The notes under the pieces are model-generated. The model did no database searches and was not told the DNA's origin. It worked only from the letters and a program-made list of their open reading frames with translations. A program made the translations under genes and the position numbers. A stretch of 42,861 nt of DNA from Bacteroidales bacterium. GTDB taxonomy: Bacteria > Bacteroidota > Bacteroidia > Bacteroidales > UBA932. The first letter of the stretch is position 1, and each line of letters opens with the position of its first letter. The stretch covers positions 1 to 42,861 of the forward strand of contig JAFUJQ010000002.1 of NCBI GenBank assembly GCA_017473705.1, in the 5' to 3' direction. Below, piece by piece: positions 16,985-18,167 of the stretch.

Positions 16985-17424
16985 TGAAAAAAAGCATATT
17001 CATATTGATCGCCCTGCTGCTCATGGCAACAGGCTGCAAGAAAGAAAAAACTGTGGATTATGCCAAGCAGGTAATCGGAGAATGGCACTGCGTGCCTGAA
17101 ACATTCGATGCAGATGTATATCTCGCATTGGACCCGGACGGAACATTTGCCCTGTACCAGCAGATCGGCGAAGGACGCCACAGACATTATTCAGGAGAAT
17201 GGGAACTTGACGGAATCACTTTGTCAGGTTCATATTCCGGCGGAGAAGCATGGGGAAGCAGCTACCAGGTCTCTTTCTCAGGAGGCAATACCATGATTCT
17301 CAAGGCATTGAATGGTTCGGAGGAAGTTATGACCTACTCCCGCAATACTATCCCTTCGGAAGTCATGGAAGGCAGCGTAGAAATGAAGTCAGATGCTGCC
17401 ATTGACTGCAGGCCGGTCCTCTAG
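16984..17424 (+). CDS. Small lipocalin-like lipoprotein (copy 2)
   Basis: 146 residues from the ATG at 16984, which overlaps the subtilase stop by one base (TAATG). An in-frame ATG at 16975 would add three residues, but the signal peptide (MKKSIFILIALLLMATGC, lipid Cys18) fits the later start. A GGAGG at 16970-16974 lies 9 nt upstream, inside the codons for the subtilase NGGWL tail. The mature protein parallels copy 1: EWHCVPETFD, LYQQIGEGRHRHYSGEW, GGEAWGSSYQV. It ends the operon. Its stop overlaps the convergent queH stop by four bases (CTAG). Function unknown; it may assist or restrain the adjacent protease. Confidence 0.85.
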   Translation: MKKSIFILIALLLMATGCKKEKTVDYAKQVIGEWHCVPETFDADVYLALDPDGTFALYQQIGEGRHRHYSGEWELDGITLSGSYSGGEAWGSSYQVSFSGGNTMILKALNGSEEVMTYSRNTIPSEVMEGSVEMKSDAAIDCRPVL

Positions 17425-18167
17425 TCTTCCTTTCTGATACTGAACTCACAGCCACAATAGAGCTGATTATAGAAATCATACTCCTTTATGATCTGAAGGC
17501 GGCGCTCCTGGAGTCCGCCTTTTCTCCAATTCTGTTCCCACCAGATGATTCCTGACGGAATCATCTCTACCCCCAGTCGACTCTCGTCGACAGCCCCGTG
17601 GGGGCATACCGACCACTCACTTACGTTCGGGTCGGGCGCCGTCGCTGCTTCGATGTTCTCCGAACATCTCGCTGACGCGAGCGGCGCGGCGCTGGAGCGC
17701 CTTACCAAGATTGGCTGCTGGCAGGCCCAACGGCCGGCTTCGTTGATCTGGTCAAGGGATTTCCAGCGGGATGACGCCAGAGTCGTGGTGATGACCTTTA
17801 TACCTTTTTCGCTGGCATACTGAGCCGTGCGCAAGAGGCGGAGCTTGAAGCATTTCAAGCATCGGCCTCCCCTCTCCGGCTCGTTCTCCAGGCCTTTGAC
17901 AGCCTCGAGCCAATTTTCATGGTCATAGTCCGCATCAACTATTTCCAGCCCGAGCGATTGAGCATAACGTGTGCACTCGTTCTTGCGGATTTCATATTCC
18001 TCAAGAGGATAGATGTTGGGATTGCAATAATATATGACAGGTGTGATTCCGTTCTGCATCAGCGCCTCTATGATGGCGCTTGAGCACGGAGCGCAGCAAG
18101 TGTGGAGAAGAACTGTCTTCTCCCCCATAGGTGCCTGTATTTCCATTTTCTTCTTCATCCCTGTCAT
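17421..18167 (-). CDS. queH: QueH-type epoxyqueuosine reductase with an internal insertion
   Basis: 248 residues. QueH reduces epoxyqueuosine to queuosine in tRNA. The family cysteines are present: HTCCAPC (24, 25, 28), RCLKC (103, 106) and CGC (238, 240), as are TTTLASSRWKSLDQINEAGRW and NWRKGGLQERR. Between GRWA (about 148) and WWEQNWRKGG (209 on) there are about 60 residues where homologues, as I know them, have roughly 8. The extra segment is encoded by a string of hairpins (17544-17701) and looks like an in-frame mobile-element insertion. The frame remains open and all cysteines survive, so the protein could still be active. Starts at 18158 or 18128 are also possible. Confidence 0.85.
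   Translation of the reverse strand: MTGMKKKMEIQAPMGEKTVLLHTCCAPCSSAIIEALMQNGITPVIYYCNPNIYPLEEYEIRKNECTRYAQSLGLEIVDADYDHENWLEAVKGLENEPERGGRCLKCFKLRLLRTAQYASEKGIKVITTTLASSRWKSLDQINEAGRWACQQPILVRRSSAAPLASARCSENIEAATAPDPNVSEWSVCPHGAVDESRLGVEMIPSGIIWWEQNWRKGGLQERRLQIIKEYDFYNQLYCGCEFSIRKED
17544..17701. mobile_element. Palindromic hairpin-array element inserted in-frame in queH
   Basis: Seven inverted repeats lie almost end to end: GATGATTCC/GGAATCATC (17544-17552, 17557-17565), GTCGAC/GTCGAC (17576, 17586), GCCCC/GGGGC (17593, 17601), CCGAC/GTCGG (17609, 17631), GATGTTC/GAACATC (17652, 17662), CTCGC/GCGAG (17668, 17677) and GGCGCT/AGCGCC (17688, 17696). The segment matches the stretch of QueH that has no counterpart in the family, and it reads through without a stop. 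It resembles the Rickettsia palindromic elements in behaviour, though not evidently in sequence. No other copy is seen in this window, so mobility is inferred. Confidence 0.65.

Follow-up and report, generated by a model that had tools for sequence, protein, structure and literature searches.

The best-documented palindromic repeats that sit in frame within protein genes are those of Rickettsia, which has reduced, parasitic genomes, and we know of no established mechanism by which these elements enter a gene. Porphyromonas is of the same order as the organism considered here. In the parts of the literature cited, the Rickettsia palindromic elements (RPEs) are about 100-150 bp long, have predicted stem-loops and occur between genes, in frame in many conserved protein genes and also in RNA genes, including that for RNase P (M1) RNA (PMC2229807, PMC10969869). 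They have a long stem and terminal inverted repeats, 12 bp in a table of one source (PMC2229807), and those of R. conorii carry a CGTC tag at one end (PMC3733652). Beyond Rickettsia, in-frame insertion of palindromic elements is described for ERIC, YPAL, NEMIS and REPs (PMC2229807, PMC10969869, PMC3733652), with some REPs located inside genes (PMC3733652). Porphyromonas has MITEs, of which BrickBuilt is reported, in the portion of the source cited, as strictly intergenic (PMC10969869). A search of the open literature by title and start of abstract, a scope outside which most subscription journals fall, found no report of such an in-frame element in Bacteroidota.

The window, the whole 42,861-nucleotide stretch of Bacteroidales DNA that was analyzed, contains a queH gene interrupted by a compact series of hairpins (Table 1). 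Insertion of a dispersed element is close to certain here, and the insert is very probably a non-autonomous hairpin-array element dispersed in Cryptobacteroides that has entered the queH coding sequence and would be read as an additional stretch of loop, a fold-back route of entry being offered with this as a suggestion. The initial annotation had recognized seven inverted repeats at 17544..17701. Seven stem-loops can indeed be read, but it is the first six that form the repeated core, and the seventh, P7, lies outside what is shared between copies. The minus strand from 17566-17703 has a folding energy of -72.1 kcal/mol (z -4.70), equalled by 0/200 dinucleotide shuffles, and z is -2.4 to -4.1 for five other folded copies. 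At P4 the best fold of the window copy departs from the consensus, the C run being paired with the terminal run of Gs. Most copies of the element end in AAGGCGC on one side and GGGGGTnnA on the other, and in the consensus the hairpins are separate members of an array with the two ends unpaired with each other.

Table 1. Features of the queH locus and its inserted element in the window
Feature	Position	Strand	Details and basis
queH ORF (epoxyqueuosine reductase), carries the insertion	17421..18167	minus	248 aa; PF02677 2.1e-59; PDB 7lc5
Repeat core, about 138 nt	17565..17703	minus	covariance model R1 positions 1-136, 144.5 bits
Hairpin P1, GGCGC-NNCA-GCGCC type	17688..17701	minus	fold, consensus and covariation
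Long stem P2, conserved internal loop GUCAGCGAG / CGAAGCAGC	17636..17687	minus	fold, consensus and covariation
Apical hairpin of P2, sequence variable, complementary in nearly all copies	17652..17668	minus	alignment and fold
Hairpin P3 (CCGACC...GGTCGG)	17609..17635	minus	fold and consensus
Hairpin P4 (GCCCC...GGGGC)	17593..17605	minus	consensus structure
Hairpin P5 (GTCGAC...GTCGAC)	17576..17591	minus	fold and consensus
Flanking hairpin P7, 10 bp, sequence unlike that of other copies	17543..17566	minus	downstream of core

The frame is open through the hairpins, as originally noted, and the stretch that they encode is without counterpart in the QueH family. The Pfam QueH match to the window protein stops at residue 151, and the solved QueH chain 7lc5 aligns up to residue 146 and resumes at 206, its own sequence having six residues between the two aligned blocks. 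The length between two QueH motifs could be measured in 75 of 80 named QueH loci; it is 11-12 amino acids in the Bacteroides and Phocaeicola records and in several from Cryptobacteroides, and 63 in the QueH of SIG159, where the residues are identical to those of the window loop. A QueH match is present in 58/61 genomes of the genus (57 besides the window's own) and in most of these is interrupted near 151/205, and alignment of other relatives gives a gap or a different loop at the site. An in-frame insertion within a short QueH loop is well supported, and the predicted translation of the insert includes the tryptic peptide CSENIEAATAPDPNVSEWSVCPHGAVDESR. In four other loci (L157, L169, L174 and L180) the QueH loop is filled by a different repeated peptide pattern, SGN..ENPDK / SGK..FPD, and several further relatives have short loop peptides that by eye resemble remnants of one or other end of the element.

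The element is multi-copy. The window's own genome, an assembly of 171 contigs that is 71% complete, has three copies: that in queH, one in the spacer between genes read by the analyst from their sequence as gcvT and gcvH, and one in frame in an M20 peptidase gene. A consensus search gave 19 full or partial matches across 6/8 close genomes, and covariance model R1, built from 8 full copies, places the element in at least 107/300 Cryptobacteroides genomes, a lower bound because at most 11 candidates per genome were scored and the filters were strict. Further copies, sought on the suggestion of the initial annotation, occur both within genes and between them, in the window's genome and in those of relatives, and the prospect it had raised against its own reading, that no related genome would hold a second copy, is excluded by these genomes of the genus. 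Among 295 genomes of the order the model matches in the window's own only (at least one other there is of the same genus), keeping in mind that a model trained on Cryptobacteroides may let remote forms escape. A single degenerate pattern of the conserved internal loop, matched exactly, gave 0 hits in viral contigs. The data come entirely from assemblies, for the most part draft MAGs, in which many copies are at contig ends.

Flank, frame and repeat counts for a first set used 85/95 matches, representing 83 distinct copies (the omissions being three L103 duplicates and seven weak partials). A second set used 61/62 matches (one weak match omitted) from 59/60 loci (L351 and L064 are one place). 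The majority of the fetched copies lie between genes. Structural RNA genes are near element copies or 3′ halves at L045, L046, L061 and L101 (tRNA), L075 (tmRNA) and L042 (5S rRNA), and at L065 a group II intron match (RF00029; 46-138) is 27 bases from an opposite-strand copy. Tandem-looking repeats around GTGTGCAAAAC...CCCCGGGACCTG adjoin a partial element match in genome G023 (L006, ~1590-2400).

In-frame copies occur in nine kinds of protein gene and there are RNase P RNA copies in two species. Ten of the 83 distinct copies in the first set are in frame in Pfam-supported protein genes, all sense, namely queH (3), M20, a hutI-like amidohydrolase, aroE, murB, a U32 peptidase (2) and a 4Fe-4S protein, and one is in rnpB. 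Two further genic copies come from the 61 of the second set, a sense copy in rsmE and one in ispG whose antisense orientation rules out the idea that genic copies are always sense. The names hutI, aroE, rsmE and ispG are a reading of Pfam matches and motifs. The queH carriers are the window organism and G042, which share one common insertion, G314, G257 and, beyond the first set, a yak MAG (L155). The U32 insert is near the start of the gene, with a similar short peptide before it in both species.

At the corresponding sites there is no copy in 38 homologues examined among those listed (11 M20, 9 hutI, 6 aroE and 12 murB), one of which, the M20 homologue L260, has a copy elsewhere on its fetched stretch; the term homologues is used because at least one of the hutI sequences (L276) comes from the genome of the carrier itself, as a second copy. 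The match to relatives breaks at the element in 11/11 cases for the 4Fe-4S protein, 16/18 for rsmE and 9/19 for ispG, the remaining ten ispG relatives being matched in the first part only or fragmentarily. The 4Fe-4S case had been doubted as the part after the element resembles a signal peptide with a start codon, a doubt dispelled by the single open frame of 500-538 amino acids in 11/11 relatives. These dispersed copies in other genes, together with element-free homologous sites, bear out the original proposal that the queH segment was inserted in frame.

Through-frames were taken as those of at least 150 amino acids extending beyond both ends of the element by 15 bases (15 chosen loci) or by 60 (second set). 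A Pfam check of 18 further such frames, with one other (L326, masked bases) left out, gave no match except for L042, where the GDSL esterase domains begin well after the element, which therefore lies upstream of that gene. Open frames are not enriched in the element, with 1.25 sense frames per copy against 1.35 in shuffles, and the notion of a sequence specially open to reading in many frames was dropped. Where one species has the element, the murB, hutI or aroE loops of others (L237-L252, L261, L263, L270-L282) have other repeat-like peptides, for instance CHSERSEESF, HCEEPRDVAIS, KNRATPLAAG, VISSEVEKS and PPAARGVARFS. From their sequences it is as if several short repeat families were colonizing loops in frame in the genus.

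In rnpB of G021 (70.9 bits) and of G314 (54.1 bits) a full-length element is present between P2 and GAGGAAAG. From the start of P1 to GAGGAAAG there are 207 nucleotides in G021 versus 33 in G042 and 30 in G072, and the arrangement in G314 is the same as that in G021. A short native P3 is present in 7/9 of the rnpB sequences examined. Otherwise normal rnpB of G072 has a partial element directly upstream (L287 1849-1935, 27.8 bits). In G090 the P3 of rnpB (L107 ~1240-1375, minus) seems to hold a different insert of ~130-140 nucleotides closed by a long stem, and the present element is in the spacer just upstream.

Compared with published descriptions of RPEs, rather than with RPE sequences, the element works like an RPE. 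It is inserted in frame in conserved protein genes and in a structural RNA gene (rnpB in G021 and G314). The likeness first drawn to RPEs stops short of two features of membership: there are no terminal inverted repeats, nor a long stem joining the ends, and no CGTC end tag. The phylum is also different, and the element is accompanied on its 3′ side by a hairpin with a target-like inverted copy. As far as the cited part of the source describes them, YPAL, ERIC and other MITEs are likewise 100-200 bp, structured and found in in-frame fusions, and YPAL targets span or adjoin dyad symmetry (PMC2229807). Unlike MITEs, the present element is without terminal inverted repeats and its flanking duplications are irregular and often tandem.

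New here is the presence of P7 after the element at genic sites, where it mostly pairs host sequence with an inverted copy. In the first set, with 80 of the 83 distinct copies usable, a perfect hairpin of at least 8 bp is within 60 nucleotides downstream of the core in 40/80 and upstream in 1/80, compared with 0.95% of 631 control windows. The corresponding figures for the second set are 29/61, 3/61 and 3/229. About half of all copies are without a P7 of 8 bp, and its sequence differs between copies. At nine of ten kinds of genic site a hairpin of 7-18 bp follows the element: 8 bp in M20, 12 in hutI, 10 in aroE, 18 in murB, 7 and 12 in U32, 10 and 13 in rnpB, 15 in rsmE, 18 in ispG and 10 in the window queH, the copy without one being that in the 4Fe-4S gene (best 4 bp). 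Usually this hairpin is conserved host sequence paired with an inverted copy of the same. The outer arm encodes GRGT in M20, VIDAK in hutI, FVSVGA in murB, LIVG in aroE, ILIGP in rsmE and ELPVAQ in ispG, and is GAGGAAA in rnpB. Its residues are mostly kept in homologues, and the inner arm is its reverse complement. In the window, the outer arm reaches into the codons that specify the conserved IWW motif.

Such hairpins might have been there first, the element targeting pre-existing ones such as terminators, so that P7 would be the old target. Many intergenic P7 hairpins resemble bidirectional terminators, and Yersinia YPAL is described, in the part of the source cited, as landing in or beside dyad symmetry (PMC2229807). 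At queH itself the P7 evidence is weak, and the element-free relative L171 has the same 7-bp hairpin as L153. At seven other genic sites the hairpin is nearly absent from element-free homologues. Their best hairpins are 3-5 bp for M20, hutI and aroE, 3-6 for murB, 4-8 for rsmE (17 of 18 measurable, one at 8), 3-7 for ispG (16 of 18 measurable, one at 7) and 4-9 for rnpB (seven, one at 9 that is AT-rich). Over the 60 nucleotides tested, just 3/78 at these seven sites reach 7 bp or more (2/71 protein, 1/7 rnpB), and a pre-existing target is rather unlikely.

A second possibility is that the element is of the REP/REPIN type and is moved by a REP-associated Y1 (HUH) transposase that recognizes hairpins in single-stranded DNA. 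It resembles REPs in being palindromic and dispersed with some copies in genes, its covariation is nearly confined to Watson-Crick pairs, as suits hairpin DNA, and Y1_Tnp domain matches are present in 46/61 genomes of the genus. It is, however, several times longer than a REP of 20-40 bp, has neither a GTAG nor a CGTC tag, and, unlike in REPIN-RAYT systems, no RAYT gene is flanked by the repeat and the Y1 genes of the genus are not linked to it. There are 0 elements in 30 Y1 loci of ~3 kb, and about 5 of 12 Y1 genes located there are flanked by matching hairpins that differ from this element. (These genes, of ~300-350 codons, are at L125, L128, L135, L148 and L151, and the hairpins on their two sides match closely and are unrelated to the present element.) Nor are the two associated by genome, Y1 being in 18/23 element-bearing and 28/38 element-free genomes, and G075 has 5 copies with no Y1 match at 83% completeness. 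A Y1 enzyme that has been lost or has diverged is possible, but neither the Y1 loci nor genome co-occurrence supports a Y1 partner, and its involvement is unlikely. More generally, no gene family is within ~1.5 kb at four or more element loci, save for the queH neighborhood and the element's own antisense reading, and no partner gene came to light in these searches.

A third reading takes the segment as a conserved structured non-coding or cis-regulatory RNA that overlaps queH by chance. Its pairing is conserved and its internal loop too: with 95 copies aligned, 90 of them distinct, standard pairs make up 96.3% of the 3249 pair cells, and double-sided changes are present in 33/40 pairs, a level that 0/500 shuffles and no slid version approach, though this alignment was fitted to the structure. 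A plain, unfitted alignment of 8 copies still has double changes in 15/40 pairs. Most fetched copies are extragenic, and several are beside tRNA, rnpB, tmRNA or 5S genes. The make-up of the pairs points elsewhere. G-U accounts for 47 and A-C for 21 of the 3249 cells (G-U 1.4%, with one pair supplying 16 of the 47), as against 80 and 6 of 679 (G-U 11.8%) in rnpB from seven sequences of the genus, compared on an RNAalifold structure; the G-U difference is strong by statistical test. An Rfam search at permissive threshold gave no credible match and none near the gathering score. Both the G-U tolerance of a structured RNA and resemblance to a described family are therefore lacking, and the copies are dispersed in frame within unrelated genes, all of which makes a functional RNA very unlikely. 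Because G-U pairs are rare the structure looks DNA-based, and our reading is that it would be held at the DNA level by selection acting on single strands in folded form, by template switching from one arm to the other, or by a combination of these. Finally, that an ordinary QueH loop, variable in length as it is in the genus, became GC-rich and repetitive by chance is exceedingly improbable: the two other copies in this genome refute it, and homologues of the segment occur between genes and inside unrelated ones.

The one relative found to have the same residues in the QueH loop, G042 (the genome of SIG159), has 0/139 differences from the window in the element and 53/608 (~9%) in flanking queH, which is not the normal codon evolution that the initial annotation had weighed against insertion. 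With the core identical despite that flank difference, plain vertical descent is no explanation, and the core identity suggests exchange or re-acquisition at the queH locus. Other shared sites have broadly similar divergence in element and flank, with that of the element higher in some pairs. A scar in L154 keeps the left 23 element bases with an identical left junction, so that the queH insertion seems older than the split of the window organism, G042 and L154.

Mobility, the other part of the original proposal, agrees with the dispersed copies and with sites filled in some genomes versus empty in others, and it is from these that present mobility may be inferred. TAAC or TAAT is preferred before the core (T 45, A 37, A 37 and C 29 of 70, the counts omitting 12/82 copies that end in GCG). 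Direct repeats of at least 10 bp are present in 15/80 copies versus 0.4% of mispaired controls. They vary in length, are irregular and often tandem, frequently include the element's own tail, and do not establish a target-site duplication of fixed length. As judged from these junctions, tandem units, the TAAC/TAAT preference and irregular direct repeats suggest replication-linked copying over cut-and-paste.

In the mechanism proposed, the moving form of the element would be DNA, probably a single strand folded up at the replication fork. The target strand would fold back on itself and be copied for 7-18 bases, giving the inverted copy, and synthesis would then jump to the element and return, as in template switching. 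Selection would remove insertions that disrupt the frame or a structured region, and those in tolerant loops would persist and decay to short scars. Template-switch hairpins, as the cited parts of two sources describe them, similarly have well-paired arms arising as DNA events, but are local mutations, while P7 occurs together with an inserted, dispersed element (PMC8794818, PMC8604942). Fold-back copying is the insertion step favored here, though it is less likely than not. The fuller proposition, that insertion writes an inverted target copy between element and target, the element needing no dedicated transposase and entering through fold-back synthesis with a template switch at the fork, is doubtful enough to be put forward as a suggestion.

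An element of gut Bacteroidales that has in-frame copies, is present in more than one third of 300 genomes of the genus and has entered a ribozyme gene suggests something more than a by-product of genome decay. The inverted target copy beside it is a concrete, testable signature of an entry route. Since relatives have other repeat-like peptides in these loops, the loops may suit study of how proteins gain segments, and if the fold-back reading is true, tolerant loops of housekeeping proteins and RNase P RNA would be genus-wide reservoirs of the element.
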